Shown: piece after piece, positions 18,905 to 43,713 of the stretch
Position numbering within the stretch: the stretch's first letter is position 1
Layout of the letters: the number at the start of each line of letters is the position of its first letter
From: Pseudomonadota bacterium
Lineage (GTDB): Bacteria > Pseudomonadota > Gammaproteobacteria > Burkholderiales > Burkholderiaceae_C
Assembly (NCBI GenBank): GCA_018241185.1
Contig: JAFEEH010000161.1
Location: 1 to 58,917, forward strand
Direction: 5' to 3'
DNA length: 58,917 bases
The notes under the pieces: model-generated
Databases searched by the model: none
Seen by the model: the letters and a program-made list of their open reading frames with translations, nothing else
What the model was told of the DNA's origin: nothing
Translations under genes and position numbers: made by a program

Positions 18905-18997
18905 GGCTACACTTCGCGCGCGGTGTAGGTTTTTGACCGCTTGAGCCTCAAAGCTACACCGGGTGGTGCGGCTGGGCTCCGGGAAACCTACACCGGG
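18905..18997. promoter_or_regulatory. Left cluster of integrase arm-type sites (attL side)
   Basis: Four related sites with core CTACAC: GGCTACACTT (18905-18914), AACCTACACC reverse strand (18922-18931), AAAGCTACACCGGG (18950-18963) and AAACCTACACCGGG (18984-18997). Two further copies occur at the right prophage end. They lie between mutS and the integrase ATG, so integrase binding could also regulate its own gene. The role is inferred from position and repetition. Confidence 0.6.
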
Positions 18998-19007
18998 AGT
19001 TCCCGCC

Positions 19008-20294
19008 ATGCCATTCGACGCTCGCGCGGCGAAGCTGCTGCAGCCTGGGCAGACGATTATCGTGAAGGAGCACCCGGGCCTGCGCCTGGTGGCCACCACG
19101 TCGCGCAGGACGTGGATCTATCGATACCGATCACCCGTCGACGGCCGGTTGCGGCAAATCGCGATCGGCCAGTGGCCGGAGCCGGTGAGCTACGGCCGGG
19201 CGGTGGCCAGGTGGGAGGACCTGCAGGCCGCCCGCAACGATGGTCAGGACCCCGCGGCCGCGAAGAAGGCTGAGCGCGCGGCCGCGCGACCCGCGCCGGC
19301 GATGGCCGGCTACACCATTCGGCAGCTGTGCGACGACTACCTGGCCGGGCACGTTGACCGGCACCGCAAGGCCAAGGGCGCGGCCGAGGTGCGGCGCCAG
19401 TTCGACACCATGCTCGGCAACCTGGCCGGCGTGCAGGCGTCTGCACTCACCCGCGCGCAGGCGTTCAAGCTCCTCGAGGACAACGCGCACCGGCCCGTGG
19501 TGGCTGGCCAACTGCGGCAGGAGCTCGGCGGCGCATGGGACTATGCCCTCGACGCCGGTCGCCTGCCCGAGGACGCGGTCAACTGGTGGCGGCTCATCAT
19601 GCGCGGCCGCCTGCGCAGCAAGGGCCACAAGATCCAGGGCGAGCACGTCGGTACGGCCAAGCGCGTTCTCGACCAGGTCGAGCTCGGCGCGCTCATCCGC
19701 TGGCTGCCCAACTTCACCGCGCTGGTGGAGGACGGCCTGACCATGTACCTGTGGACCGGAACACGCGGCGCCGAGATCCTGGCCATGGAGGCGCGCGAAA
19801 TCACCGAGGAGCCCGACGGCCTCTGGTGGACCATTCCGAAGGCCAAGACTAAGAACGCACGCATCGAGCTGGCCACGGACCTGCGCGTGCCTCTGGTGGG
19901 CCGGGCTGAGGCGATTGTGCGCCGGCGCCTGGCGCTATACCCCAGTGGCTACCTTTTTCCGTCGACGGGCAAGCTGTCCAAGCACGTCCAGCAGAAGGCC
20001 CTGGGTGTCGCCGTGCACTACCGCATGCCGTACAGCCGGACGCGGCCGAAGGAAGATCGCGCACGGCTCCCGGTGGAGCGGTGGGCGCCGCACGACCTGC
20101 GCCGATCGGCGCGCACGCTGCTGGCCGCCATGGGTTGCCCTGACTCGATCGCCGAGGCGATCCTCGGGCATATCCAGCCCGGCGTGCAGGGGGTGTACAA
20201 CCGGCACGGTTACGACAAGGAGCGCCGCCAGTGGTTGACGGCGCTGGACCTCAAGCTCGAGGAGCTGGCGAGGCAGCTCCCCGGGCGCGCTTGA
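19008..20294 (+). CDS. int: Tyrosine-recombinase integrase
   Basis: Catalyses site-specific integration and excision of the prophage. 428 residues: an N-terminal DUF4102-like arm-binding domain (LRLVATTSRRTWIYRYRSP), a core-binding SAM-like domain (about residues 100-190), then the catalytic domain. Catalytic Arg I sits in WTGTRGAEIL (about residue 247), the HxxR box in APHDLRRSARTLL (about residue 360), and the Tyr in GVQGVYNRHGY near residue 396. ATG chosen since the preceding bases hold the integrase-type site AAACCTACACCGGG. Its 3' end overlaps the convergent AlpA-like gene by 44 bp. Confidence 0.95.
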   Translation: MPFDARAAKLLQPGQTIIVKEHPGLRLVATTSRRTWIYRYRSPVDGRLRQIAIGQWPEPVSYGRAVARWEDLQAARNDGQDPAAAKKAERAAARPAPAMAGYTIRQLCDDYLAGHVDRHRKAKGAAEVRRQFDTMLGNLAGVQASALTRAQAFKLLEDNAHRPVVAGQLRQELGGAWDYALDAGRLPEDAVNWWRLIMRGRLRSKGHKIQGEHVGTAKRVLDQVELGALIRWLPNFTALVEDGLTMYLWTGTRGAEILAMEAREITEEPDGLWWTIPKAKTKNARIELATDLRVPLVGRAEAIVRRRLALYPSGYLFPSTGKLSKHVQQKALGVAVHYRMPYSRTRPKEDRARLPVERWAPHDLRRSARTLLAAMGCPDSIAEAILGHIQPGVQGVYNRHGYDKERRQWLTALDLKLEELARQLPGRA

Positions 20295-21444: not shown

Positions 21445-21737
21445 CGCAGGAGCTCCTCTTCCCACTCGTCCATCTGCCGGATCTTCTGGTCGATGCGAGC
21501 ACGGATCTCGCCGGCGTCCAGCTGCCACAGAGCCTCGAGCAACTGGAGCTGGGCTCGCACGTCCGCGATCTCCTTCTGCGCGGCGTGCAGGTTCAGTTCG
21601 CCCGTCGACGGGTCCCGGCCAAACAAGCCTTGGATGCTGATACGTGCCAGCACCTTCTGCAGCTCGGCGAGCTCCTCCAGCGACTTGCCGACGCGCCGGA
21701 CCTGCAGCGGATTGGGATCTGGGCGCCACGGGTTCAT
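21441..21737 (-). CDS. Small coiled-coil hypothetical phage protein
   Basis: 98 residues with heptad-like helices (ELAELQKVLARISIQGLF and IADVRAQLQLLEALWQLD). The start codon overlaps the stop of the ParB-like gene and its own stop overlaps the next start. No function is recognised. Position suggests a partner of the ParB-like protein or of the downstream helical protein. Confidence 0.65.
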   Translation of the reverse strand: MNPWRPDPNPLQVRRVGKSLEELAELQKVLARISIQGLFGRDPSTGELNLHAAQKEIADVRAQLQLLEALWQLDAGEIRARIDQKIRQMDEWEEELLR

Positions 21738-24079
21738 TCCAGTACCTCAAGCTCGTTGGTCTCGAACACGCCTACGTCTGCGGCCGCACCGGCCTTGCCG
21801 GTGAGAGTCACAGCCCAACCGTCGGGCGTGCAGGCCTTCACCACACCGTGGCGCCACTGGTACTGCACCGCTGAGAGCACGCGCACCTTGCTGCCGATCA
21901 GCGGGTCTGCCAGGTAGGGCTCGGCATGCTCTGGCTGCAGCACCACCAGCTCGTGCGAGCGTTCGCCGTGTCGAAGGTGGAGGCGCCCGTCCTCGCCGAC
22001 GCCGACGATCCGTCCCACCTTGCCGATGATCTTGAGCAGCTTTCCGTTCGGCCCTTTGCTTCCTGCCTTCACCTGGGCAAGGTCGCCGGGGTGGAACACG
22101 TGTGCCGGCATCGCTGGCTCGGCGACGGGCTCACTGGGGACCTCGCCCGTTGGGAACGGCCATGCGGCCACCGGCGACAACCGTGCCGCGGCAGGTGCCG
22201 CGGCTTCCTCTTGCTCTGCGCCGTCAGGCGCCTGATCTGTCCCCTCGGCGGCCTGCAGCGCAGCTGCGATTCCGCCGCGGGCTTCGGCCTCGCTCGTCTT
22301 CGGCTTCTTCGCCGGCGCCGCAGGCTTCGACGCGGATTTCTTCCCCCTCGCGCTCCCCTTCGCTTGCGCAGCAGGGGCGGTCGCGGCGGATGCCTTTTCG
22401 GCCTCGAGCTCGGCGGCGCGGTCTTCACTCTCCATCGCGCGCTTGACCTCGGCCTGCGCCTCTTCGACATCGACCCCGGCCAGGTGAATCAGCTCGAACA
22501 GGGTGGTGCGCGGGCCTTGCCGGTTGCGGTTGTCCTCGTCCCAAGCGTCGTATTCGTCCTCGCTGCTCCACAGCAGGTAGCGCAGCATCAGGCGCGGGAG
22601 ATCGGCCTCTTCCATGGCCTCTACGCGGCGCAGGGCCTCTCGTTCATTGAATTCATCGCCCAGGTCGAGCGCCGGGCCGAAGGCGCCGCTTTCGTACCCG
22701 TGGATTTGATCGACCAGCCAGGCCCGCAGCAGCTCGCCAGGCAAAGCGGATTGAGTTTTCAGGAACCCATCCGTCCGCTGAAGCACCGCGGCCTGCCAGC
22801 GTTCGCTGTACTCGCGTCGCTGCTCCACAGGTAGAGGTGCGGCCTTGTCGACGGCCTTGCCTTCCTTGGCCGCCATGCGCGCCTGGTGCTTGGCGGTGCG
22901 GCTCAGGCCATGCATATCGATGAGGCGCTTGACCTGGTCGACCGGCAAGACCTTGGCCACGTCGCCGGTCTCCGGGTGCTTGACCAGCACCGCCTGCGGG
23001 CAGTGCTTGCCCAGCGCCCTGCGCAGGGTGGTGCCATCGAGCTCCAACCTGTAGTCCGGGTACTCGTCGAGCAGGTAGTAGCCCTTCAGCCAGTTGCGCG
23101 AGCCGGCGTCGAAGATCTTCTCGGCCTTGGCCTGTTCGATCACCTTCTTGCCCTCGGCCTGGGCGGCCTCGAAGCGCCGATCGGCGGCCGCCTTCTCCTT
23201 GTCGTGGTAGCAGCTCGGATCGGTGCACAGGTCGGCGCTGTCGACGTCGGCGAACAGGTCCGGGTTCGCGCCCGTGCGCTTCGGGCACTCCGGGCAGGCG
23301 CCGGCACCTTCACGCAGCGTCACGTCCTTGATGTCGAAGCTCGTGCGCTTGAGCGACAGCATGACGTTCGTCTGCAGCCAGGCCTGCAGGTCCTTCACCG
23401 GCAGGGCGCGGCCGTAGTTGTCGCTGCCGGTGGCCTGGCCGAGCGCCTTGATCTGCAGCTTGGCGTCGGGCACCCGGGCGATCAGCAGCGCCTTGCTGAA
23501 GTCGATCTCGCCCTTGCGCAGCGCCTCGCGCCCGGCCGGGTCCAGGTCGAGCAGCTTCAGGCGCTGGTAGACGTAGCTGCGGCTCTTGCCGATGCGCTCC
23601 CCGATCACTTCCTTGGCCATGTCGGCCTGGTCGATCAGGCGCTGGTAGCCCTCGGCCTCCTCGAGCTCCGACAGGTCGTCGCGCTGCAGGTTCTCCACCA
23701 GCTGGAAGGTGAGCACCTGGACGTCGTCCCACTTGCGGATGAGCACGGGGATCGTGGTCTTGCCGGCGAGCTTGCTGGCCCGGTACCGCCGCTCGCCCGA
23801 AATGATCTCGTGCGTCTCACGCTGGCCACGGCCGAGCTTGCGGCTCGTCTCGTCCAGGCGGTTCGCCGGCAGCGGCCGCACCAGGATCGGTTGGCCCACG
23901 CCTTGCGCCTTGATGCTCTCCGCCAGCTCGGCGAGCTTTGCCTCGTCGAAGTGCGTGCGCGGGTTGGTCAGGCTCGGCACGATGGCCGAGAGGGCGAGGG
24001 TGGCGAACTCGTCGCCGGCGGGCTGTTCGTCGTCGGCCAGGGCGTGGCCGTCCGAGATGGCGAATTCCGTCATGGGCAT
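21734..24079 (-). CDS. Large ParB/Spo0J-like DNA-binding protein
   Basis: 781 residues. A ParB/Srx N-terminal nuclease/CTPase-like fold lies in about residues 28-130 (SLTNPRTHFDEAKLAELAES and the ISGERRYRASKLAG box). A KorB-type HTH follows (about 150-215; IGERIGKSRSYVYQRLKLLD). Then comes a Cys cluster (CPECPKRTG ... CTDPSCYHD) that could bind zinc, a charged Ala/Lys-rich linker (about 580-650) and a KOW-like beta C-terminus. There is no ParA in the window, so it may be a regulator or centromere binder and not a classic partition pair. Four copies of a 16-bp palindrome in the prophage are candidate targets. Its ATG region overlaps the RT stop, with AAGAGGAAAGC as ribosome site. Confidence 0.85.
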   Translation of the reverse strand: MPMTEFAISDGHALADDEQPAGDEFATLALSAIVPSLTNPRTHFDEAKLAELAESIKAQGVGQPILVRPLPANRLDETSRKLGRGQRETHEIISGERRYRASKLAGKTTIPVLIRKWDDVQVLTFQLVENLQRDDLSELEEAEGYQRLIDQADMAKEVIGERIGKSRSYVYQRLKLLDLDPAGREALRKGEIDFSKALLIARVPDAKLQIKALGQATGSDNYGRALPVKDLQAWLQTNVMLSLKRTSFDIKDVTLREGAGACPECPKRTGANPDLFADVDSADLCTDPSCYHDKEKAAADRRFEAAQAEGKKVIEQAKAEKIFDAGSRNWLKGYYLLDEYPDYRLELDGTTLRRALGKHCPQAVLVKHPETGDVAKVLPVDQVKRLIDMHGLSRTAKHQARMAAKEGKAVDKAAPLPVEQRREYSERWQAAVLQRTDGFLKTQSALPGELLRAWLVDQIHGYESGAFGPALDLGDEFNEREALRRVEAMEEADLPRLMLRYLLWSSEDEYDAWDEDNRNRQGPRTTLFELIHLAGVDVEEAQAEVKRAMESEDRAAELEAEKASAATAPAAQAKGSARGKKSASKPAAPAKKPKTSEAEARGGIAAALQAAEGTDQAPDGAEQEEAAAPAAARLSPVAAWPFPTGEVPSEPVAEPAMPAHVFHPGDLAQVKAGSKGPNGKLLKIIGKVGRIVGVGEDGRLHLRHGERSHELVVLQPEHAEPYLADPLIGSKVRVLSAVQYQWRHGVVKACTPDGWAVTLTGKAGAAADVGVFETNELEVLE

Positions 24080-25179
24080 GCTTTCCTCTTGAAGGCTCGG
24101 GTGAGATCTCCATCCACGGCATGGCCACGCCTGAGCATGGCCCGCGCGATGGCGGCTTGTTCCTTGTGGCTGGCCCCGGCCTGGCGCACCAGTCCGAAGT
24201 AGCTGTTGCCGGTGGCGTGCAGGTCGGCGGGCTGGGCCGCCTCGATGCGCTGCAGCGCTGTGCGCAAGGTGCGCGGGCGGGTCGTGCGGCGCCACGGTTT
24301 GATGACGTGGCCCACGAAGTCGATCCCGCGCGCCACGGGCTGCAGGATGGTTTTGCGCGGGTTCAGCGCCAGGTGCAGGCCGGCCAGGCGCTCCTCGACC
24401 TGCTGGCGGGCGTGGTTGAGCCACTGTGCACACGTGTGCACCATCACGAAGTCGTCGACGTAGCGCACGTAGTGGGGTGCGCGCACCTGATGCTTCACGA
24501 ATTGGTCGAGGTCGTCCAACAGCACGTTCGCGAAGAACTGGCTCGACAGGTTGCCGATCGGCAGGCCGTGGTGGTCCGGCGCGTTGAACAGGCTCTTGTG
24601 CGGCGGCACCAGGGCCAGTTCGCTCCGGCTGCCGCGGATCTCGACGTCGCCGCGCGGGTCATGCATCAGGATCGTCTCGGCGAGCTGGGCCCACCAGGTG
24701 GAGGCGATGCGTCGGCGCAGCTGGCTGAGCAGCACCGCCTTGTCGATGCTCACGAAGAAGTTGGCCAGGTCGCACTTGAGGTAGTGCGCCGGCCGGCTCC
24801 AGTTGTGGGTGCAGCTGCGCACCTGGTGCTCCAGGCGCTGCGCGGCGTACAGCGTGCCCCGGCCGGGGATGCACGCGCAGCTGTCGGCCGTGAAGCGTGC
24901 ATGGAAGGCCGGCGCGATCGCGTTGTAGAGCAGGTGGTGCACGATGCGGTCGCGGAACTGCGCCGCCCACACCTCGCGCGGCTTGGGCCTGGTGATGACG
25001 AAGCAGATGGAGCGGCCCGGCTGCCAAGCGCCGGCGGCGAGCTCGTCGTGCAGCTCCATCAGGTTCGTTTCGGCCTGGGCTTCGAAGGCCTGGGCGCTTG
25101 CGCTGTTGCGCTTGGTCCGACGGCAATCGAGCCAGGCCTGCACAAGCAGGGGGAACAGGTCAGGATCTGCGGACGGCAA
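24070..25179 (-). CDS. Diversity-generating retroelement reverse transcriptase
   Basis: Copies the template repeat RNA into cDNA with errors at adenines for transfer into the variable repeats. The conserved region starts DLFPLLVQAWLDCRRTKRN. It then shows FRDRIVHHLLYNAIAP, CIPGRGTLYA, a YLKCDLANFFVSID block with the first Asp, LPIGNLSSQFFAN, the catalytic YVDDF, and LNPRKTILQP with GIDFVGHVI, as in DGR RTs (about 369 residues). I chose the TTG at 25179 because GAAGG lies eight bases upstream and little precedes the conserved core. The frame is open further, and an ATG at 25428 overlapping the Avd stop (ATGA) would give 452 residues including the translated template repeat. The stop overlaps the ParB-like start. 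Confidence 0.92.
   Translation of the reverse strand: MPSADPDLFPLLVQAWLDCRRTKRNSASAQAFEAQAETNLMELHDELAAGAWQPGRSICFVITRPKPREVWAAQFRDRIVHHLLYNAIAPAFHARFTADSCACIPGRGTLYAAQRLEHQVRSCTHNWSRPAHYLKCDLANFFVSIDKAVLLSQLRRRIASTWWAQLAETILMHDPRGDVEIRGSRSELALVPPHKSLFNAPDHHGLPIGNLSSQFFANVLLDDLDQFVKHQVRAPHYVRYVDDFVMVHTCAQWLNHARQQVEERLAGLHLALNPRKTILQPVARGIDFVGHVIKPWRRTTRPRTLRTALQRIEAAQPADLHATGNSYFGLVRQAGASHKEQAAIARAMLRRGHAVDGDLTRAFKRKACP
24426..24441. repeat. 16-bp palindrome copy 1 (GTGCACACGTGTGCAC)
   Basis: Exact palindrome inside the RT gene, encoding VHTCA immediately after the catalytic YVDDFVM. One of four identical copies in the prophage (also 28267, 36474, 43698). No copy was seen in the flanking host DNA of this window. 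Confidence 0.85.
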
Positions 25180-25255
25180 CCGCGCAACCTTCGTAGCTCT
25201 TGTGGTTGTTGTTCTGGTTGCCGTTGTTGAAGTTGCAATTCCAGGCGTACGAGGC
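25165..25255 (-). repeat. DGR template repeat (TR)
   Basis: 91 bp read on the minus strand. In the frame used by the variable proteins it would encode A-S-Y-A-W-N-C-N-F-N-N-G-N-Q-N-N-N-H-K-S and on to a YEGCAVAVR-type end, with nine Asn codons (eight AAC, one AAT), the classic adenine-rich design. Three variable repeats match it except at adenines. The 3' end is an adenine-free, GC-rich block (25169-25189 on the plus strand) identical in all four copies. It begins about 170 bp after the avd stop and its end overlaps the RT start region. Confidence 0.95.
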
Positions 25256-25424
25256 CCTGTCGCGCTATGAAGGCCGCCCTGCCGAAGGCCTGGGCCGATC
25301 AGCGGGGCGGCTGCACAGGACGCACCGTGCGCTGGCGCGGCCGTTTCCGTGGTGTGCGTGTCGGTGGGCTTGTGGCCCAGCGGCGCGACCAGATTCATGC
25401 GCACGGGCATGAGGGCCTTGACCG

Positions 25425-25787
25425 TCATGCTGCAGGCGCCCTGTTCGCTGTCTTGAGCCATCCGCCGGCCTGCTTGCCGATGCTGCCGAGCAGCTGCACC
25501 GACTGGCCCCACAGCTTGGGCGACACGTGGCGCCGGTCGAAGAGCACGCGCAGCATGACCGTGACGGCCCGCTGGCGGGTGAGCAGCTCCTCGAGGTGGG
25601 CGGCGCGCACGTCGTGGCGCGAAGCGTTGGCCAGCGCCATGAGCTCGAGGATGTCGACGCAGTGCTGCGTGATCTTCTCGCCCATGATTCGCTTGAGGCC
25701 GCGGGGCAACTGCTCCTGCACGCTCACGGCGAGATCGAGCAGCTGGATGCCGGTCCTGTAGATCGGCAGGTCCGTGTGGATGGCCAT
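25425..25787 (-). CDS. avd: Avd-like DGR accessory protein (four-helix bundle)
   Basis: 120 residues, all helical and basic. It shows the family pattern LPIYRTGIQLLDLAVSVQEQ, then PRGLKRIMGEKITQHCVDIL and LMALANAS. Avd forms a pentameric barrel that binds the RT and the template RNA and is required for mutagenic retrohoming. It sits between the third variable-protein gene and the template repeat, the standard DGR position. The stop TGA overlaps an ATG in the RT frame. Confidence 0.9.
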   Translation of the reverse strand: MAIHTDLPIYRTGIQLLDLAVSVQEQLPRGLKRIMGEKITQHCVDILELMALANASRHDVRAAHLEELLTRQRAVTVMLRVLFDRRHVSPKLWGQSVQLLGSIGKQAGGWLKTANRAPAA

Positions 25788-25802
25788 CGTGGCTCAGCTC
25801 AA

Positions 25803-25824
25803 AAGGATCGAAGGACCGAAGGAC
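25803..25824 (-). repeat. Tandem CCTTCG element downstream of VR3
   Basis: Read on the minus strand: GTCCTTCGGTCCTTCGATCC, a tandem repeat directly after the stop of variable protein 3 and six bases after VR3. Equivalent elements follow VR1 and VR2, and none is next to the template repeat. Confidence 0.6.
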
Positions 25825-26277
25825 TCAGACCCTGCGGACGGCAACCGCGCAACCTTCGTAGCTCTTGCGGCTGTAGCTCTGGTAGCCGGTGAAGAAGTCG
25901 CAATGCCAGGCGGCCGAGGCGTTCTCGTGCTCCTCGCTGGACCAATGCCACTCGCCCTGCAGGTGCTGCTTGCAGTTCGCGAAGAGGAGGGCCTGCTCCT
26001 GGCGGTCGGGGAGCTGGCCGCCGACTGACGCGGCCCACTCCATGGCGTCCTGCCAGGTCATGCGGCGATCCGGCCGCGCCGCGAGCAGCACGATGTCGTG
26101 CTTCACCATGCCCTCGGGCTCGAGCGTCGAACCTGCGTAGTGCTCGCCTGCCTGCAGGACGACGGTGGTGCCCGGGACCTCGATCACGCGCTGGGCCGAC
26201 TGGGTGCGGTACTGCTCGATCAATGTGGCCAGCTCGGTCTGGCGCGCCTGGATCTCGTCGAGAGTGATGGTGCTCAT
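25825..26277 (-). CDS. DGR variable protein 3 (DUF1566/C-type-lectin-like)
   Basis: 150 residues. An N-terminal helix (LDEIQARQTELATLIEQYR) precedes the formylglycine-enzyme/C-type-lectin-like variable domain: WQDAMEWAASVGGQLPDR, ALLFANCKQHL and EWHWSSEE, then the variable segment AWHCDFFTGYQSYSRKS and the invariant YEGCAVAVRRV end. The variable residues lie on the ligand-binding face in known DGR lectin folds. ATG at 26277 is preferred; the longer frame would run into variable protein 2. No tail or anchor domain is present, so it is a stand-alone binding protein. Confidence 0.9.
   Translation of the reverse strand: MSTITLDEIQARQTELATLIEQYRTQSAQRVIEVPGTTVVLQAGEHYAGSTLEPEGMVKHDIVLLAARPDRRMTWQDAMEWAASVGGQLPDRQEQALLFANCKQHLQGEWHWSSEEHENASAAWHCDFFTGYQSYSRKSYEGCAVAVRRV
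25830..25920 (-). repeat. DGR variable repeat 3 (VR3)
   Basis: Aligns without gaps to the template repeat (offset 665 bp). I count 12 substitutions: 11 at template adenines and one at a template T (the codon TAC reads GCC). The last 21 positions are identical to the template. Confidence 0.93.
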
Positions 26278-26287
26278 CGTGTGCTCG

Positions 26288-26303
26288 CGAAGGATTGAAG
26301 GAT
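26288..26303 (-). repeat. Tandem CCTTC element downstream of VR2
   Basis: Minus strand ATCCTTCAATCCTTCG, overlapping the stop of variable protein 2 and about 20 bases after VR2. It corresponds to the elements after VR1 and VR3. Confidence 0.5.
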
Positions 26304-26719
26304 CAAGCGCTGAGCGGAATGCAGCGGACGGCAACCGCGCAACCTTCGGAGCTCTTGTGGGTGCCGTACTGGGTGCCGTAGCTGAAGCCGCAATACCAGG
26401 CGGACGAGGCGTCTTCCTCGTCGTCTTCGTCCACGAAGGTCTCGTCGGTCCAGTGCCAGCGCTCGCGCAGCTGTGCCTTCACGTTGGCGAAGAGCAGTGC
26501 CGCCATGGGGCGGGTGGGCAGCTGGCCGCCCTGCTCGGCGGCCCAGTCCTTCGCGGCCTGCCAGGCGAGGTCTTCGCCCTGGGCCGGCAGCAGGACGACG
26601 GCGACGTGCTGGCCGTCCTGCTGGGTGATGACGCCGGCGAAGGTGCCGCCCTCGAGCGGTGCGGCGAGGGCGGGGAGGGCCGCCAGCGTGAGGGCGGTGG
26701 GAAAGAGCGCAGAGGACAT
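26303..26719 (-). CDS. DGR variable protein 2 (DUF1566/C-type-lectin-like)
   Basis: 138 residues, same scaffold as variable protein 3: EGGTFAGVI near the N-terminus, WQAAKDWAAEQGGQLPTR, ALLFANVKAQLRERWHWTDE, an acidic loop (VDEDDEEDA), then the variable AWYCGFSYGTQYGTHKSSE and the GCAVAVRC end. The first 20 residues are hydrophobic (SALFPTALTLAALPALAAPL) but have no positive charge, so a signal peptide is uncertain. Start: ATG with AGGAG at good spacing. Confidence 0.9.
   Translation of the reverse strand: MSSALFPTALTLAALPALAAPLEGGTFAGVITQQDGQHVAVVLLPAQGEDLAWQAAKDWAAEQGGQLPTRPMAALLFANVKAQLRERWHWTDETFVDEDDEEDASSAWYCGFSYGTQYGTHKSSEGCAVAVRCIPLSA
26324..26410 (-). repeat. DGR variable repeat 2 (VR2)
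   Basis: Gap-free match to the template repeat (offset 1,155 bp) with 12 substitutions, all at template adenines, including one in the TAC codon just before the invariant block (TCC here). It diverges from the template two codons before the other copies at its 3' edge (CGCTGC). Confidence 0.94.
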
Positions 26720-26756
26720 GGAAGCTCCTTGGTGGTGGTGAGGGGAAGGGAAGGGC

Positions 26757-27548
26757 TCACGCGGCACGCTGGAGCGCGGCGAGAGCACAGAAGGATTGGT
26801 TGGCCTGCTTGAGCTGCTCGGTGGCGTAGAGCAGCGCCTCGGTGGCCGTGGTCAGGGTGCGGGCGATTGCCGCGACCTGGTCGGCCTCGCCGATGCCGTT
26901 CTGTGGCGCCGGGGCGGGTGCTGGCGGTGCTGCGAGCGCTGGCGGCACGTAGCCAGGCAGAGCGAGGGCGCGCCGATCGCCGACCTGCACGCGGATCAGC
27001 GCACCGCGCACCAGCGCCGGCTTGAAGATCGCCGTCAGCGAGTGCTGGGGGATGCCGAACTGGTGGCGGATCTCGGTGTAGAGGAGGTGGCCGCCGTGCG
27101 CCTGCAGGTGCATCAGCACGCTGTGCGGGCCGCTGCCCACGCGCGGGCGGTAAGCGCTGAGCGAGCCGCTGCGGCCTGGGGTCAGCGGCTGCACCTCCTG
27201 GCCGTTCTTCACGATGCGCGTGACGATCGCCGGTGGCTGCACCGGCTCGGGCTGCGGCTCGGGCGCCTCGGGCGGTGGTGCCAGGGCAGCAGCCAGCGGA
27301 TCGGCCGAGCGTGCCGCCGATCGGGCCATCGGCATGGGCGGCGCCGGCGGCAGTGGTGCGATCAGTTCCTCGTGCAGCTGCTCGCGCGTGACCTGGCGGC
27401 TGCCGATGCGGCTGGGCAGCGCGTAGGCGTCATAGGCGCCGGCGCGCGGCGACGTGCGCCGCAGTTCCTCACCGCGGTAGATCTCGGTGGAGATCGGCCG
27501 GCGCGGCGTCGCCACGCTCCCCATGGCCGTCGGGCTCTTGGCGGTCAC
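26757..27548 (-). CDS. Winged-helix-like phage protein with Pro-rich linker
   Basis: 263 residues, GTG start overlapping the previous stop (GTGA). The first about 120 residues are Pro/Ala-rich. The centre has a winged-helix-like region (VLMHLQAHGGHLLYTEIRHQ, then FGIPQHSLTAIFKPALVRGA). A Pro/Ala linker and a C-terminal helix (TLTTATEALLYATEQLKQAN) follow. It probably binds DNA or another protein; no named family is recognised. It lies between the small early genes and variable protein 2. Confidence 0.65.
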   Translation of the reverse strand: MTAKSPTAMGSVATPRRPISTEIYRGEELRRTSPRAGAYDAYALPSRIGSRQVTREQLHEELIAPLPPAPPMPMARSAARSADPLAAALAPPPEAPEPQPEPVQPPAIVTRIVKNGQEVQPLTPGRSGSLSAYRPRVGSGPHSVLMHLQAHGGHLLYTEIRHQFGIPQHSLTAIFKPALVRGALIRVQVGDRRALALPGYVPPALAAPPAPAPAPQNGIGEADQVAAIARTLTTATEALLYATEQLKQANQSFCALAALQRAA

Positions 27549-27910
27549 AGCGCAGCCGCCTTGCGCAGGTGCGACAGCGGGTCGACGCCGCCGGCCAGGC
27601 GGGCGGCGATCACCTCGGCCTCGGTCGGCGCCAGGCGCCCCAGGGAACGGCGCGCCCGGTCGCGCACCTCGGCCGGCACGGCCAGGCCGAGCTGCTCCGG
27701 GTGCAGCAGGTCCATCGCCAGGGCGACGAGCGGCACCCGGGCCGGGTCGTACACCACGTCGGCGTGGCGGCGATGGCTGGTGCCCAGCAGCTCCATGGCC
27801 AGCTGCTCCGCGGGCGTGAGCGGGGCGCCGACGACGGGGCGCGCTGCATCGGTCGAGACCTGCACGCGCAGATCCCGGCCATCCTGAATGGTGATGGTGA
27901 TGGAGGCCAT
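27545..27910 (-). CDS. Hypothetical early phage protein
   Basis: 121 residues. Begins MASITITIQDGRDLRVQVST, a beta-hairpin-like start, followed by helices (AEQLAMELLGTSHRRHADVV and others). No recognised family. Coupled to the next gene by a GTGA overlap and preceded by a 9-bp gap. Confidence 0.65.
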   Translation of the reverse strand: MASITITIQDGRDLRVQVSTDAARPVVGAPLTPAEQLAMELLGTSHRRHADVVYDPARVPLVALAMDLLHPEQLGLAVPAEVRDRARRSLGRLAPTEAEVIAARLAGGVDPLSHLRKAAAL

Positions 27911-27919
27911 CCGTGGCTT

Positions 27920-28291
27920 TCAGTGAGAGTGGATGAGGGCCACGGCCTGGACGTGCGGGAAGATGGTCCGCATGCCGTCGACGGGCGTGGTGATGGAGAT
28001 CCGCGCGCCGCGCTTGAGCGTGGCGGCCTTGGCCTCAGCCGACTTGCGCGCGGCCTCGGGGTAGACGATCTCGGCGTGGATGGAGCGATCGCGGCCGTTG
28101 AGCGGCTGCAGCTCCAGGCAGAGCACTGGCAGGGCGTGGCCGTCGTGTCCGACCGGCTTGGTGCGCACCTCGGCATCGCGCGTGAGCACCCCGGGCACCT
28201 CCAGCACTTCGCTGGCGGGCGGCGCGGCGTCGGTGCCGGCGAACAGGTCGGAGTCGTCGCCGGCCTGTGCACACGTGTGCACGGCGTTCAC
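27920..28291 (-). CDS. Possible OB-fold ssDNA-binding-like early protein
   Basis: 123 residues. GTG at 28291 overlaps the stop of the previous gene (GTGA). After a short variable N-terminus it reads VLEVPGVLTRDAEVRTKPVG, then LPVLCLELQPLNG and KRGARISITTPVDGMRTIF, a strand order that resembles small phage single-strand DNA-binding proteins. The assignment is tentative. The second copy of the 16-bp palindrome lies in its first codons and encodes VHTCA, as in the RT. Confidence 0.6.
   Translation of the reverse strand: MNAVHTCAQAGDDSDLFAGTDAAPPASEVLEVPGVLTRDAEVRTKPVGHDGHALPVLCLELQPLNGRDRSIHAEIVYPEAARKSAEAKAATLKRGARISITTPVDGMRTIFPHVQAVALIHSH
28267..28282. repeat. 16-bp palindrome copy 2 (GTGCACACGTGTGCAC)
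   Basis: Exact copy inside the 5' end of the ssDNA-binding-like gene. Confidence 0.85.
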
Positions 28292-28506
28292 GATGCGCTC
28301 CCTTCGGCCTTGGCGATACACAAACACCGGCAACGCCCGAAATCGAGAGCATCGGCGCGCGTCTCAAAGGCGCCGAACCGATAACGCTCCACGCCCTGAT
28401 GGGTGATCACGTAGCACCAATACCCCTCGCCCTCAACGTCGCACTCGGCTGACACATCCCAATCGGGTGAAAGGAGCGATGCAGGCGTGTGCTGCGCGGT
28501 GGTCAT
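28288..28506 (-). CDS. Small hypothetical early phage protein
   Basis: 72 residues: MTTAQHTPASLLSPDWDVSA..., with GYWCYVITHQGVERYRFGAF, a compact beta-rich small protein often seen in early phage operons, function unknown. Both ends overlap neighbouring genes by 4 bp, supporting that it is translated. Confidence 0.6.
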   Translation of the reverse strand: MTTAQHTPASLLSPDWDVSAECDVEGEGYWCYVITHQGVERYRFGAFETRADALDFGRCRCLCIAKAEGSAS

Positions 28507-28751
28507 TGCGGCAGACCTCCGACGATGACCGACGCCAGCGCCACCAGCGCGGCGATCACGCCGACGATGCGCAGCGCCACGATGCCGATGGTCCTCAGCC
28601 CGTGGAGTACTTCGCGCGGCCCGGCACCCTCGCGTGCATTGGTCTGGCTGTCTTCATGGCCGACGCCGGCGGCCAGGGCCACGGCGAGCAGCATGAACAG
28701 CGTGCACGCGAGCGCGACGATCGTGATGAGCGCCCAGGCGAGGATGTTCAT
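28503..28751 (-). CDS. Small two-TM membrane protein
   Basis: 82 residues with two hydrophobic helices: ILAWALITIVALACTLFMLL near the N-terminus and IGIVALRIVGVIAALVALAS near the C-terminus, joined by a charged loop. Coupled to both neighbours by 4-bp overlaps. Role unknown; one of three consecutive membrane-protein genes just downstream of variable protein 1. Confidence 0.65.
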   Translation of the reverse strand: MNILAWALITIVALACTLFMLLAVALAAGVGHEDSQTNAREGAGPREVLHGLRTIGIVALRIVGVIAALVALASVIVGGLPQ

Positions 28752-29044
28752 GGCGACCCCTGCGGGTTGAGCGACAGGCCGAGCAGCGTCAGCAGCACCA
28801 GCGCGATGCACAGCTGGTCGAAGATATGCCGGGACCAGCGCCGCACGTCGACGAGCAGGCGCTGCAGTCCGCGGTTGATGCCGACGAACAGACCCTCGAG
28901 GGGCAGGCTGTCGAGCTCCTCGGGCTGGTCGACGCCGTTGCGCTGGCCGAGCAGGGCGTAGGTCTGGCGCACCTGGCGCTGGTGCTCGCGGTGGAGCAGT
29001 TCCGCCACGTCGGTCGGCAGGCCGTGGGGGTTGGCGGTATTCAT
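28748..29044 (-). CDS. Small membrane-anchored hypothetical protein
   Basis: 98 residues. A soluble helical N-terminus (VAELLHREHQRQVRQTYALL) is followed by a C-terminal hydrophobic helix (QLCIALVLLTLLGLSLNPQ), so it is probably tail-anchored in the inner membrane. 4-bp overlaps with both neighbours. Confidence 0.65.
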   Translation of the reverse strand: MNTANPHGLPTDVAELLHREHQRQVRQTYALLGQRNGVDQPEELDSLPLEGLFVGINRGLQRLLVDVRRWSRHIFDQLCIALVLLTLLGLSLNPQGSP

Positions 29045-29286
29045 GCCAGCCAGCCCAGTGCGTCGAACGCGACAAGTGCGACCAGGGCGGCACCGCCGGC
29101 CCACGGCGCGAGGCGATGGCCCAGCGGCACGGGCGCCCGCGCGTCCATCGGGACGATGCGCGCCACGCTGCTGCGCTGATGGCCCTGGCACTGCTCCAGG
29201 CAGCGCGCCACGGGGCGATGGCTGTCGCGTGTGGCATCCACCGTGCCGACAAGGCGCGCCGGCGTGGACAGCGGCGCGGTCAGCAT
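29041..29286 (-). CDS. Small protein with C-terminal TM segment
   Basis: 81 residues. A polar N-terminus with two Cys (ARCLEQCQGHQRSS) precedes a C-terminal hydrophobic helix (GGAALVALVAFDALGWLA). Its ATG lies inside the last codons of variable protein 1 (7-bp overlap), so it is directly coupled to a DGR target. It could be a membrane partner for the variable protein; that is inference from order only. Confidence 0.6.
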   Translation of the reverse strand: MLTAPLSTPARLVGTVDATRDSHRPVARCLEQCQGHQRSSVARIVPMDARAPVPLGHRLAPWAGGAALVALVAFDALGWLA

Positions 29287-29792
29287 GCCGCCTCCGAAGG
29301 ACCGAAGGATTGAGCGGCGAATCTGCGGACGGCAACCGCGCAACCTTCGTAGCTCTTGCGGAGGCCGTACTGGTAGCCGTCGTAGAAGTGGCAATACCAG
29401 GCGCACGAGGCGTCCCAGTCGCTCTGCGTGCTGGACCAGTGCCACCGGTGTTCGACGTGGTCGCGCACGTTGGCGAACAGTAGCGCCAGCTCGAAGCGCG
29501 CCGGCAGGTAGAAGTCGTGGTGGCCGTCGACCTCCAGCGCCGCGCAGGCCTCGGCCGCGGGGTGCTTGGCCTTGTCGTCCAGCAGTGCCATCGTGTTGGC
29601 CAGGCCGTCGCGCTCGCTCATGGCGCCGGCCACCTTGCGCGTACCGCCCCAGGCCAGGCTGCCGAGCTTGGCCGTGGCGAGGATCAGGTGGTAGTCGGCG
29701 TCATCGCCGCGGAACAGGCCCGCGTAGATGCCGCCCTGGCCGGGCCAGGGCTGGCCGATGCGGGGCGGGGTGAGGGTGGGCGCGGTGCTCAT
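29280..29792 (-). CDS. DGR variable protein 1 (DUF1566/C-type-lectin-like)
   Basis: 170 residues, the longest target. GGIYAGLFRGDDADYHLIL starts the domain, then NTMALLDDKAKHPAAEACAA and ALLFANVRDHVEHRWHWSST. The variable segment AWYCHFYDGYQYGLRKS and the invariant YEGCAVAVRR follow. Unlike the other two it continues past the usual end (FAAQSFGPSEAAC), translating the tandem CCTTCG element. ATG at 29792 has GAGGG seven bases upstream and overlaps the preceding stop. Confidence 0.92.
   Translation of the reverse strand: MSTAPTLTPPRIGQPWPGQGGIYAGLFRGDDADYHLILATAKLGSLAWGGTRKVAGAMSERDGLANTMALLDDKAKHPAAEACAALEVDGHHDFYLPARFELALLFANVRDHVEHRWHWSSTQSDWDASCAWYCHFYDGYQYGLRKSYEGCAVAVRRFAAQSFGPSEAAC
29295..29311 (-). 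repeat. Tandem CCTTCGG element downstream of VR1
   Basis: Minus strand AATCCTTCGGTCCTTCGG, ten bases after VR1 and here within the coding end of variable protein 1. It may fold with flanking GCCGC/GCGGC into a weak stem. Confidence 0.55.
29321..29411 (-). repeat. DGR variable repeat 1 (VR1)
   Basis: Gap-free match to the template repeat (offset 4,156 bp) with 12 substitutions, all at template adenines. It is the copy with the longest identity at the 3' edge. Confidence 0.95.
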
Positions 29793-30025
29793 GCCCGACC
29801 CTCGCAAGCCAGCTCACGGTACAGCGCGGCCTGGCGCTGGGCGGCGATACGGGCGGGGCGCTCGCTGCGGCGGCGGGCCAGGTCGGCCTGCAGGCGGGCG
29901 ATGCCCTGGATCGGGCCCCGCACGGGCGGGCGATTGGCCGGCGGCGGCCGGCGGACGCTAGGCGGCTGGAGCGGCGCCTGGCGCGGGCTGCCGGTGTCCG
30001 CCGGCGCGGGTTGGGGTGTGGGCAT
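29789..30025 (-). CDS. Pro/Arg-rich small protein, first gene of leftward operon
   Basis: 78 residues. The first half is Pro-rich; the second half is a basic helix (IARLQADLARRRSERPARIA). GGAGG lies six bases before the ATG. Its transcript leader is short (about 20-25 nt) after the promoter at 30055-30082. Stop overlaps the start of variable protein 1. Function unknown. Confidence 0.6.
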   Translation of the reverse strand: MPTPQPAPADTGSPRQAPLQPPSVRRPPPANRPPVRGPIQGIARLQADLARRRSERPARIAAQRQAALYRELACEGRA

Positions 30026-30054
30026 TTCGGCCTCCGTCGGGTTGACGAAGGTCG

Positions 30055-30095
30055 ATTATGCAGAACTGCATTAAAAATGCAATGCAGAAATGAAT
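30055..30095 (-). promoter_or_regulatory. Leftward early promoter with two repressor-type operators
   Basis: On the minus strand TTGCAT (30077-30082) and CATAAT (30055-30060) are spaced 16 bp. Overlapping them are ATGCAGAACTGCAT (30058-30071) and ATGCAGAAATGAAT (30082-30095), the same operator type as in the repressor/Cro switch. This promoter drives the operon that contains the DGR. Confidence 0.75.
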
Positions 30096-30841: not shown

Positions 30842-31339
30842 CTACTTTGCCGCTGTGACCAAGTTCACGCCCTCTGGACTTTGGGGTGTTTCCCCCAGCA
30901 GCCGCTCCATTTTCGAGGCCCAGCGCGCCCCTTCCTCAGGCTCATCTGCAAGTGCCTCCAAGATGGCTTTGGCCGCCTTCCTATCGGCGGCATCCATAGG
31001 CTCCAAGTACTTCGCGAGCCTTAGCAGCAGAGGCCTGACACCTAGCAACGTCGACGGAACTGCAAGTTCGGAAACCGACCCATGTGCGGTCTCCGCGCCT
31101 CCTTCGATCCTTGCCCATTCACGCTCAGCTAAGCCGCTGTCGTAGAACGCAAGCACGTCCACGCCCAGCAACTTCGCAGCCGCTTCAAGCGCTGGACTAC
31201 GTCGCGGTTGCCTGATCTCACCCTTTCGAAAACGGTCGAACCCAGCCTGTGCTGTCGGCTTCCGTATCGCCTTCGCGAGCGAAGTAGGGTTGTGGCCCCG
31301 CTTCGTGAGAAGCAGGCCGAAGAGGGTTGGCCCGTCCAT
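30842..31339 (-). CDS. CI-like repressor, XRE HTH without peptidase domain
   Basis: 165 residues. The N-terminal HTH (TSLAKAIRKPTAQAGFDRFR, then KLLGVDVLAFYD) is followed by a helical C-terminus (RKAAKAILEALADEPEE). There is no LexA/S24 serine peptidase domain or Ala-Gly cleavage site, so RecA-stimulated self-cleavage is not expected. It is divergent from the Cro-like gene with the operators between them. The start is uncertain by a few codons; the ATG at 31354 falls within an operator. Confidence 0.8.
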   Translation of the reverse strand: MDGPTLFGLLLTKRGHNPTSLAKAIRKPTAQAGFDRFRKGEIRQPRRSPALEAAAKLLGVDVLAFYDSGLAEREWARIEGGAETAHGSVSELAVPSTLLGVRPLLLRLAKYLEPMDAADRKAAKAILEALADEPEEGARWASKMERLLGETPQSPEGVNLVTAAK

Positions 31340-31348
31340 CCCGAGACT

Positions 31349-31403
31349 ATGCATAAATGCGTAATGCATGTCTGATTGATTTAACAATGCAGAAGTGCAT
31401 AAT
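31349..31403. promoter_or_regulatory. Repressor/Cro switch operators and rightward promoter
   Basis: Operator-type sites ATGCATAAATGCGT (31349-31362), an overlapping ATGCGTAATGCAT (31357-31369) and ATGCAGAAGTGCAT (31387-31400), consensus ATGCA-N4-TGCAT. Rightward promoter: TTGATT (31376-31381) and CATAAT (31398-31403), spacing 16. The expected transcript start falls on the Cro-like ATG. The rightward site is centred on the -10 region. Confidence 0.75.
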
Positions 31404-31409
31404 CTGGCC

Positions 31410-31637
31410 ATGACTCATGTCCAGGCCTTGATTCGACGAATGCGATCGTCGCTGTCGCAGTCGGAGATCTCGCGACGCACCGGCATCACCCAGTCGAAGA
31501 TTTCTCGATGGGAGGCCGGTGAGGTTGCTGCGGGTGCCGAGGAAGCGCTGAAGCTGGTGGCGCTGGCGGGCGAACTGGGCGTGACGCCGGTCGCGAATGG
31601 CGCTGATGCTTCGGCCGCAGGAGGCGCCCATGCCTAA
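31410..31637 (+). CDS. Cro-like XRE regulator
   Basis: 75 residues with an HTH: SLSQSEISRRTGITQSKISR followed by EAGEVAAGAEEALKLVAL. No ribosome-binding site precedes the ATG, and the -10 hexamer ends seven bases upstream, so the mRNA is probably leaderless as with lambda cI. It is divergent from the repressor and starts the rightward transcript. Confidence 0.82.
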   Translation: MTHVQALIRRMRSSLSQSEISRRTGITQSKISRWEAGEVAAGAEEALKLVALAGELGVTPVANGADASAAGGAHA

Positions 31638-32205: not shown

Positions 32206-32661
32206 TCAGATGTGAAAGTCGGTCTTGCAGACTGTGCAGGCGTAGTAGGAGCCGAACTGAGACTCGTCTCGGCGCAGCACGGTCTTCCGGTCGTTGTCGA
32301 AGCACGCCTGGCAGAGGTAATGGACCGAGGCCGTGCTGCCATCGGCAGCGCCCTCGTCCCCCTGGTATCGGTAGGCCCAGAACTCGCTGGGCGGCTTGGC
32401 GAGATTCGCCAGGGCGTAGAGACCGCGCTCTCGCAGCTTCGACTTGAGCTGATCGCGCTCGCCAATGAGTGCGTGGAGCTTCGTTTGCGACGCGTGGAGC
32501 TCCTCCACGACATGCAGATTCGCAGCCTGCAGGTCGAAGAGCCGCTCTTTAAGGTCTGAAATGGCCGCATCGATCTTCGCCTCATCGCGCGCCGCCAAGG
32601 CGACCTTCAGCGCGCCGACGGTGGCTGAAAGCGCGCCGAGCGCGCCCGAGATTTCGATCAT
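32206..32661 (-). CDS. Coiled-coil protein with C-terminal zinc ribbon
   Basis: 151 residues. A long helical region (KIDAAISDLKERLFDLQAAN, VVEELHASQTKLHALIGERD) is followed by two Cys pairs: LCQACFDN and YACTVCKTDF. Such proteins recur as accessory genes in prophages of proteobacteria, with no known function. GGAGAGAG lies upstream of the ATG. Transcribed against the rightward early genes, so probably a moron with its own promoter. Confidence 0.7.
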   Translation of the reverse strand: MIEISGALGALSATVGALKVALAARDEAKIDAAISDLKERLFDLQAANLHVVEELHASQTKLHALIGERDQLKSKLRERGLYALANLAKPPSEFWAYRYQGDEGAADGSTASVHYLCQACFDNDRKTVLRRDESQFGSYYACTVCKTDFHI

Positions 32662-32738
32662 GTCCGCTCTCTCCGGTGGTGGTTGTCGGGGGACTGCCAT
32701 CGTATGCCGGGGAGAGCGGGCACCCTTTGGTGATGTGG

Positions 32739-32770
32739 CTGCAGGTCATGGCCTGCAGTCTCTTTTTTTT
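32739..32770 (+). terminator. Intrinsic terminator after cro region
   Basis: CTGCAGG / CCTGCAG stem with 6-base loop followed by TCTC and eight T. Read rightwards it would end the transcript from the Cro promoter before the replication genes unless antiterminated. Confidence 0.75.
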
Positions 32771-32793
32771 GTCTTTTGAAGGCGATCCGACGC

Positions 32794-36193: not shown

Positions 36194-36538
36194 CCCTCAC
36201 ACGGTCAGGGCGCAGCAAACGCGCCGTGACGCAAGCACCGCCAGACGCAAGATTGGCAGCGGTGCGCCCGAAGGGCTGGGAGGCGCGCGGCGCCCCCATT
36301 GCGGTGCGGTAGCGGGGAAGTCGGCGCATGCGCCCATGACCTGAGTGTCCATGTGTCCACGGTGGCCGGCGCTTCCCCTGGAGCGCCAAGGCAGTGCTCT
36401 TCCTCGATCTTCGAGGTTGCAGCTGCTGCATGGCCCCCGCGGAATCACAAGGCGTGCGGCCGTAGGCGAGGGCGTGCACACGTGTGCACGCTCGCGCGCG
36501 CAGGCCGCTCGATCTCCCGTATGTCTCTATGAAGTGGG
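36194..36538. other. Non-coding gap after replication gene
   Basis: 345 bp with no credible gene. It starts with a CTGACC/GGTCAG hairpin at the primase stop and contains the third copy of the 16-bp palindrome (36474-36489). I see no clear promoter. It could hold an origin or regulatory region, but nothing in the sequence proves it. Confidence 0.5.
36474..36489. repeat. 16-bp palindrome copy 3 (GTGCACACGTGTGCAC)
   Basis: Exact copy in the non-coding gap, 50 bp upstream of the next gene. Confidence 0.88.
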
Positions 36539-37346: not shown

Positions 37347-37419
37347 CGTGGCGTAGAGCAGTTGGTAGCTCGCCAGGCTCATAACCTGGAGGTCGCACGT
37401 TCGAGTCGTGCCGCCGCAT
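37347..37419 (+). tRNA. tRNA with CAT anticodon, initiator-like (tRNA-fMet type)
   Basis: Complete cloverleaf by hand. Acceptor CGTGGCG/CGCCGCA; D stem GAGC/GCTC with loop AGTTGGTA; anticodon stem CCAGG/CCTGG with loop CTCATAA; variable loop AGGTC; T stem GCACG/CGTGC with loop TTCGAGT. Two initiator hallmarks are present: C1xA72 mismatch at the acceptor end and A11:T24 in the D stem. The anticodon stem has two, not three, of the G:C pairs of a bacterial initiator. CCA is not encoded. It lies between the Q-like gene and terminase. Confidence 0.85.
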
Positions 37420-37581
37420 CCCCTCAAACCCAGCGCAGTCAGCATGCACCCGTCCTCTTCCGGGGCGCATGTCGCGCTGGCCCGAGCAGCGATGGGGTGT
37501 AAATCGCAGCCACCGTGAAGCCCGCCGGCACCCGTGCTGTTCTTCCTCCCGGCACGCCGGCGGGCCGAGCGGACCCAGCCC

Positions 37582-43697: not shown

Positions 43698-43713
43698 GTG
43701 CACACGTGTGCAC
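43698..43713. repeat. 16-bp palindrome copy 4 (GTGCACACGTGTGCAC)
   Basis: Exact copy in the 95-bp gap after the capsid gene; here the symmetry extends to GGGCC on each side. Overlap with the ribosome-binding region of the next gene is excluded by 40 bp. Confidence 0.9.

Follow-up and report, generated by a model that had tools for sequence, protein, structure and literature searches.

A diversity-generating retroelement with an RT-15 RNA upstream of its template in the early operon of a Burkholderiales prophage

Organization of the locus

The window described here (the whole analysed stretch of 58,917 nucleotides (nt) of contig JAFEEH010000161.1, assembly GCA_018241185.1, from a bacterium of the Burkholderiales) includes a tailed-phage prophage that contains a diversity-generating retroelement (DGR). 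A leftward operon on the minus strand runs from approximately 30 kb toward the integrase gene (18963-20294) at the left, and carries, in order, target gene 3, small genes, target genes 2 and 1, avd (accessory variability determinant), the template repeat (TR), the reverse transcriptase (RT) gene and a ParB-like gene (Table 1). A first-pass annotation, made from the DNA letters alone, had described a complete DGR consisting of an RT, an Avd-like protein, a single adenine-rich TR and three lectin-like genes with matching variable repeats (VRs), all in this operon; every named part was found there, and the identity, completeness and early-operon location of the element are upheld. TR does not occupy free intergenic space; it lies at, and probably across, the start of the RT gene, and the gap between avd and TR is occupied by a structured RNA, RT-15. 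Four traits of DGR membership were found: an RT that groups with DGR RTs, a TR/VR pair differing almost only at TR adenines, an Avd accessory protein and a C-type-lectin fold at the VR. There is very little doubt that the element is a DGR, and it is likely to be an intact one, situated in the leftward early operon of a temperate phage.

Table 1. Positions of the DGR components and associated features in the window
Feature	Position	Strand	Remarks
Target 1	25825..26277	-	150 aa; N-terminal helix and C-type-lectin-like domain
Target 2	26303..26719	-	138 aa; lectin-like
Target 3	29280..29792	-	170 aa; lectin-like (Lcl_C-like); promoter-proximal
avd	25425..25787	-	phrog_3206 "Avd protein of DGR", E 1.5e-20
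RT-15 RNA (Rfam RF03018)	25253..25441	-	in the avd-TR gap; 151.9 bits against a cut-off of 82
TR	25165..25255	-	about 91 nt; adenine-rich; 3' end touches or runs into the start of the RT gene
RT	24070..25179	-	DGR RT, YVDDF; likely start TTG 25177-25179 inside TR; frame open upstream to 25512
VR1	25832..25920	-	89 nt; 12 differences to TR, 11 at A
VR2	26322..26410	-	89 nt; 13 differences to TR, 13 at A
VR3	29321..29411	-	91 nt; 12 differences to TR, 12 at A
Period-8 direct repeat 3' of VR1	25801..25828	-	three TCCTT units
Period-8 direct repeat 3' of VR2	26288..26307	-	
Period-8 direct repeat 3' of VR3	29296..29315	-	
ParB-like gene	21734..24076	-	overlaps RT stop, directly downstream; operon member, outside the core DGR
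Operator-like palindrome	30055..30072		upstream of the leftward operon; source site of the pattern
Second operator-like palindrome	31384..31403		between divergent regulator genes; 3 mismatches, both strands matched

Adenine-specific variation in the repeats

Over the ungapped cores of the TR/VR pairs in the window, 36 of 37 differences fall at TR adenines. A search of the whole 5.3-Mb genome with TR finds four copies only, TR itself and the three VRs, and places none in a structural gene, in agreement with the first-pass view that the variable genes lie away from the tail fibre. Relatives of the RT were found by tblastn in genome contigs at 60-82% identity, mostly from Burkholderiales and Pseudomonas with single metagenome-assembled genomes elsewhere (best 80 of 128), and also in viral contigs (best 80 of 496) and nine phage records of 108 matching, at about 60-63% identity. 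The first TR/VR scan of these relatives scores adenine mismatches mildly, a bias that is removed by a recount over a fixed core in 168 loci (80 genome loci, 80 viral contigs, seven phage records and the window). In this recount of 356 VR copies, TR adenines differ at 3858 of 8627 positions (44.7%), as against 3.4% for C, 3.7% for G and 6.1% for T, a distribution far from that expected by chance. TR was sought in the 330 nt preceding the RT and VRs in flanks of up to 10-12 kb, on one and the same strand, and the scan left out L001-L005, which are the window itself (L numbers denote loci); sequences with N or short flanks were left out of the base-level counts, of the silent-site comparison and of the counts in the VR flanks. 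Two VRs are found in 103 of the loci, three in 42, four in four, one in seven and none in 12; six of the last group have fewer than 1400 bases before the RT, and in the other six avd is displaced (L015, L017, L023, L026, L131 and L152).

The divergence between TR and VRs is attributed to adenine mutagenesis, since decay would scatter changes across all bases, and it is highly improbable that the DGR is a decaying, inactive relic of an old prophage. VR1 does carry one non-adenine change, and activity is judged here by comparison; against this, all frames are open, the prophage keeps genes for terminase, portal, capsid, tape measure, tail fibre and endolysin, and related elements appear to have been active recently. 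Adenine-biased variation between relatives, which the first-pass annotation had named as a check, was seen in loci that included two separately recorded Pseudomonas aeruginosa phages. Seventeen pairs of loci differ by less than 3% over 1330 ungapped nt of the TR-RT region; ten have identical VRs, one has no VR found, two have replaced targets and four, which amount to three independent comparisons, are informative. Among these near-identical relatives 52 of 53 VR differences are at TR adenines. L099 is identical to both L095 and L100 over the 1330 nt; its VRs depart from those of L095 and L100 at 14 and 1 sites, respectively, of which 13 and 1 are at A. Pseudomonas proteolytica L032 and the viral contig L164 differ at 8 of 1330 nt, with 13 of 13 differences at A in one VR and the second VR identical. 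The P. aeruginosa phages Haboob and phPA-G differ at 10 of 1330 nt, and their VR differences (13 of 13 and 12 of 12 at A) stand beside 7 and 3 differences in the 200 nt upstream of the VRs, a stretch in which the informative pairs as a whole show 0 to 7. These comparisons suggest recent activity of the related elements through adenine-specific rewriting of their VRs.

Reverse transcriptase and Avd

The YVDDF motif that had been reported is present in the RT translation, which matches phrog_1423 (E 7e-110); an RT search of the whole genome finds this protein alone, and the nearest solved structure is PDB 8ub7 (E 5.9e-32), which we take to be the BPP-1 enzyme. In a 37-row tree, of the kind that the first-pass annotation had suggested, the RT groups with DGR RTs and apart from retrons. 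The 14 lineage rows fall together (99/98) and are nested in a 27-row set (98/98) with all 11 DGR controls, which were taken as DGRs and in 9 of which a TR was found; the set also holds two group II model matches below the cut-off of that model (L201 and L203). Six retron rows, separate from the rest (100/99), and four of six group II model rows fall outside it. The sister rows of the lineage are Bacteroides phage F2 and a Segatella plasmid (join 94/93). The tree omits L010, L012 and L024, which are outside the silent-site RT set, and L197 and L199, in which no YxDD was found, and because several long branches meet it is used for DGR membership alone. A retron identity was rejected, as the RT lies outside the retron clade and the helix discussed below does not rise above control.

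The RT frame of 26 loci is interrupted by a stop codon within TR or immediately ahead of it, and ATG, GTG or TTG codons are found inside TR in 24 of them and only after TR in two, from which it appears that RT translation probably begins in or right at TR. The Avd-like protein recognised in the first pass has a homolog in all 114 representative loci (rows with at least 90% RT identity to an earlier row having been dropped), and in addition to its PHROG match it is hit, under the curated cut-offs, by two further models, DivGenRetAVD of NCBIfam (E 1.5e-10) and bAvd of Pfam (E 1.7e-8).

The RT-15 RNA and its position

The RT-15 match covers the whole model (1-192), beginning 17 nt within avd and reaching into the first bases of TR, and has a single-sequence fold z of -2.23. 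The stretch is seen in the 52 of 114 representative loci that were aligned, with L131 as one clear exception by eye, and covariation is strong, 26 of 32 RNAalifold pairs having changed at both partners in one or more of the sequences. Of 167 loci with enough upstream sequence, 160 contain a loosely defined core motif. In the reverse direction, RT-15 scores above cut-off in 9 of 399 genomes of the order, our own genome included, and in none of 14 control genomes; all nine matches have an RT and avd alongside, and three sub-cut-off matches have neither. The exact core pattern was found in 38 viral contigs, with an RT within 500 nt 3' in 36 of the 36 that have room and avd upstream in 33; the RT search had already turned up 9 of the 38 (7 of the 36).

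Two known DGRs place a conserved RNA elsewhere. A BPP-1 phage has a Phage_DGR RNA between TR and RT, its TR ending 210 nt before the codon of RT residue 21 (query numbering), and BalMu-1 has an RT-14 RNA in the same interval; none of the remaining eight control records scanned had an Rfam match above the gathering score. The window shows no sign of a BPP-1-type spacer RNA between TR and RT, with no match to Phage_DGR or RT-14, and its TR ends 22 nt before the residue 21 codon, compared with 55-339 nt in nine control DGRs. By subtraction, the avd-TR gap measures -2 to 34 nt in six BPP-1-like controls, and in five of the six the distance from TR to the annotated RT start is 113-171 nt; the annotated RT start of VP58.5 precedes its TR, and ANMV-1, which has no annotated avd, was left out.

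We considered whether the element could be an ordinary BPP-1-type DGR in which the scaffold lies 3' of TR, hidden in the RT gene, and RT-15 is an mRNA leader that regulates RT translation. RT-15 ends at TR directly before the RT start, as a regulatory leader would, and the two sister records have, by subtraction, 33 and 64 nt between TR and the annotated RT start as well as 128 and 115 nt before TR, where single-sequence folds give z of 0.47 (L187) and -1.62 (L195). A scaffold hidden in the RT gene should, however, constrain silent sites there. Third-base entropy at four-fold sites of 154 RTs reaches its minimum (0.20-0.25 bits) at residues 10-12, whose codons belong to TR, and then scatters around the gene mean of 1.31 (0.62-1.93 at residues 14-59), so that no codon-level constraint stands out past residue 13 in these RTs. 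Silent sites at residues 55-58 (approximately 25030-25041) are somewhat constrained, at 0.62-0.88 bits, and could be counted in favour of such a scaffold; on the other side, the known Rfam DGR RNAs have no match 3' of TR. Taken together, these observations make the leader explanation rather improbable. Because of its position, its conservation and the exclusion of a 3' counterpart, RT-15 is instead likely to be the scaffold domain of the DGR template RNA, situated 5' of TR, which indicates that a conserved DGR RNA can sit on either side of the template.

Flanks of the target sites

Phage DGR targets have been described as carrying a GC-rich hairpin with a GRNA loop 4-34 bp after the VR (PMC3240598). 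Such a BPP-1-type target is not what is found here, a GRNA hairpin with a stem of at least 6 being present in 3 of 355 lineage flanks versus 5 of 9 control DGRs. Immediately 3' of the VRs there is, rather, a direct repeat of period 8 with a sequence similar to AATCCTTC AATCCTTT. A search of 2.83 Mb in which near-identical loci were kept gave 187 occurrences of the 14-nt core of this repeat at up to 2 mismatches, of which 169 were no more than 80 nt 3' of a same-strand VR; the opposite strand has 12. At up to 3 mismatches the repeat is in 206 of 355 VR flanks versus none of 168 TR flanks, and its frequency depends on RT identity to the window (103 of 103 VR flanks at 70% or above, 56 of 84 at 65-70%, 1 of 14 below 60%).

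Tandem repeats were also assessed by shuffling. Among 93 sampled lineage flanks 42 have a tandem repeat by this test, 33 of them with period 8. Period-8 repeats of other sequence lie 3' of the VR in FP_Lagaffe (L188; 0 of 200 shuffles as good) and in the Segatella plasmid (L195; 3 of 200), while in the remaining seven controls 15 to 116 of 200 shuffles were as good. Repeats of the period-8 type may be spread more widely among DGRs than the lineage of the window.

Target proteins

A lectin-type open reading frame is found at 355 of 356 lineage VRs with a profile built from the set itself, and the targets have a median length of 158 aa and separate genes, which supports the earlier proposal that they are stand-alone proteins. 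According to the structure models, which cover targets 1 and 3, the lectin fold is firm for target 3 (predicted local distance difference test score, pLDDT, 93.5; best PDB match the C-terminal domain of Legionella Lcl, E 1.2e-5) and weak for target 1 (pLDDT 83.7), where the VR part is poorly modelled and the structural matches are lectin-like and weak. Exported targets were ruled out, with a hydrophobic N-terminus in 2 of 355 lineage targets, a lipobox in none and a transmembrane-like segment in 1. What looks like a signal peptide in target 2 is Ala-rich sequence that, by eye, aligns with the starts of homologues.

It is unlikely, though less so than the leader explanation of RT-15, that the targets are virion or host-attachment proteins that are made early and displayed on the particle. 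The viral DGR targets of three virus-dominated clades are mostly tail proteins (PMC8144416), and the viral Foldseek matches of target 3 include a tail-fibre and an S74-peptidase protein with a similar domain. The structural module of the prophage is nevertheless on the plus strand, opposite to the early operon and apart from it, and consists of terminase (37.6 kb), portal, protease, capsid, tail proteins, tape measure, a J-like tail fibre and another tail fibre to 55.6 kb, followed by endolysin. No structural gene holds a VR in the genome of the window or in phage Magia, and the targets are short, neither Pfam nor PHROGs recognising a tail-attachment domain in them. Action within the infected cell or the lysogen, on a host or rival-phage factor, is favoured because the targets are early, short, soluble-looking and outside the structural module, and could quite conceivably be the correct one.

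Proposed mechanism

Under our model, one operon transcript would carry the targets, avd, RT-15, TR and RT. Folded RT-15, situated 5' of TR, most likely binds the RT-Avd complex and positions the 3' end of TR for cDNA synthesis, during which the RT would misread template adenines. The cDNA would then replace the 3' ends of the three target genes, which would be marked by a TR-like IMH (initiation of mutagenic homing) sequence and, in the clade of the window, by the period-8 repeat just 3' of it. The outcome would be three small lectin-fold proteins with randomised surfaces, made while the early operon is on. Comparison underlies the TR/VR divergence, the rewriting of VRs in relatives, the RNA structure and position, the repeat, the lectin fold and the early-operon location; we infer the binding and priming role of RT-15, the role of the repeat and the timing of expression, and what the targets bind is the least certain part. 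We tentatively suggest that this branch of phage DGRs, which has an inverted RNA plan (RT-15 5' of the template, retron-like in topology only), might diversify early intracellular recognition proteins in the window phage and related temperate phages, directed against host or rival-phage factors and not at host range.

Several observations weigh against this proposal. The RNA ends of retrons pair through a1 and a2; a comparable closing helix joining RT-15 to the 3' flank of TR was rejected, because in 109 loci cognate pairs scored no better than controls. Seven loci are without the RT-15 core, and in at least four of them (L015, L017, L023 and L152) avd is also displaced and no VR was found, so that the linkage of RT-15 and DGR can be broken. 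The repeat is weak in distant members (46 of 154 VRs at RT identity 60-65%, at up to 3 mismatches), and a stem of at least 7 bp of some kind occurs in 55 of 355 lineage flanks, compared with 2-4 in shuffles. Against the reading of recent VR rewriting stand the pairs of L107 with L012 and L108, whose target genes differ at 145-146 of the 200 nt upstream; 31 differences (13 at A) are seen in one VR and 12 (11 at A) in the other, which we read as target gene replacement. No close relative of the window prophage with different VRs was found among the relatives, and a missing signal peptide cannot separate cytosolic from virion proteins.

If the proposal is correct, RT-15, an Rfam family without a stated role, would gain a concrete place and a testable role in DGRs. 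With an RNA on either side of the template, the question of how DGR cDNA is primed would become approachable by comparison. A broad set of temperate phages would moreover carry hypervariable proteins that are made early and are not in the tail, which is at odds with the usual account of tropism switching.

Relation to known systems

Burkholderia phage Magia (NC_070954, L170) resembles the window in its RT (60.2% identity), Avd and lectin-fold targets, which lie in an operon between repressor and integrase, and its record already notes two possible DGR targets. It differs in that phage and host are other than those of the window, and its record has no RT-15 annotation. The whole Magia genome contains three VRs, all in the early operon. 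The third VR of Magia is at gp46 (record 32316-32780), which is annotated as a hypothetical protein.

The DGR of BPP-1 (L185, Rauchvirus BPP1 record) shares the avd-TR-RT order and adenine mutagenesis with the window. In BPP-1, however, the Phage_DGR RNA is 3' of TR and a GRNA hairpin follows the VR, whereas the window has RT-15 5' of TR, the period-8 repeat and, unlike BPP-1, three early targets. The structured spacer 3' of TR in BPP-1 and its part in priming have been summarised (PMC12875486). RF03018, the RNA of the window, is annotated beside an RT in Pseudomonas phage Cruim01 (PP179333); the Rfam description, as shown, names no DGR, and the present analysis links RT-15 to TR, VR and Avd.

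The DiGReF survey of 2012 reported two to four VRs per TR, with cases from Burkholderia, Ralstonia and P. fluorescens, and a class of DGRs whose TR extends over one end, 5' or 3', of the RT open reading frame, and concluded that the arrangement is irrelevant to the mechanism (PMC3521204); the sections of the survey cited here mention neither an RNA structure nor an early-operon class. DUF1566 targets and multiple VRs are common in DGRs (PMC6642488). DGRs, several targets, overlap of TR and RT, and the lectin pair in phage Magia are thus already on record. The 5' RNA, its identity as RT-15, the period-8 repeat and the early-operon class are absent from the cited parts of the literature, and no tie between RT-15 and DGRs appears in the titles and abstract openings searched; most subscription journals lie outside this coverage, and we do not claim that the tie is not in print.

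Other features of the prophage

The first-pass annotation had called the operon repressor-controlled. Such control is suggested by two similar operator-like palindromes ahead of both operons: the search pattern was derived from the first palindrome, so that the second alone is a test, and at up to 3 mismatches 0.01 chance matches are expected. At E 0.001 no PHROG matches the gene read as the repressor (30842-31411), although helix-turn-helix regulators match its divergent neighbour (31395-31637). Three of the small genes of the leftward operon were tested and showed no family match. Beyond targets, avd and RT, no conserved partner that we took to be a real gene is present in more than 39 of the 114 representative loci; reading frames of either strand that overlap RT, avd, TR or targets were set aside by eye. 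A gene resembling a cytosine methylase (by eye) is present in 19 of the 114 loci, and a homolog of the ParB-like gene in 35 of them, the window included. PADLOC, run on eight proteins for defence systems, gave generic RT matches only. In a search for attachment sites, the regions at 18.5-19.0 and 55.6-58.9 kb shared no exact repeat longer than 12 bp, the same length as in a control stretch, and the right end of the prophage may be beyond the window.

A perfect 16-bp palindrome, GTGCACACGTGTGCAC, occurs at 24426-24441, 28267-28282, 36474-36489 and 43698-43713; these are the only four copies in the whole 5.34-Mb genome, all are within the prophage and one is inside the RT gene. The prophage encodes a ParB-like protein, and the palindrome is a candidate parS-like site. 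The 16-mer is present in 2 of the 35 ParB-bearing representative loci, the window included, and in none of the 79 without ParB. A tRNA-Met (CAT) gene is located at 37347-37421, inside the prophage and just ahead of the terminase gene.

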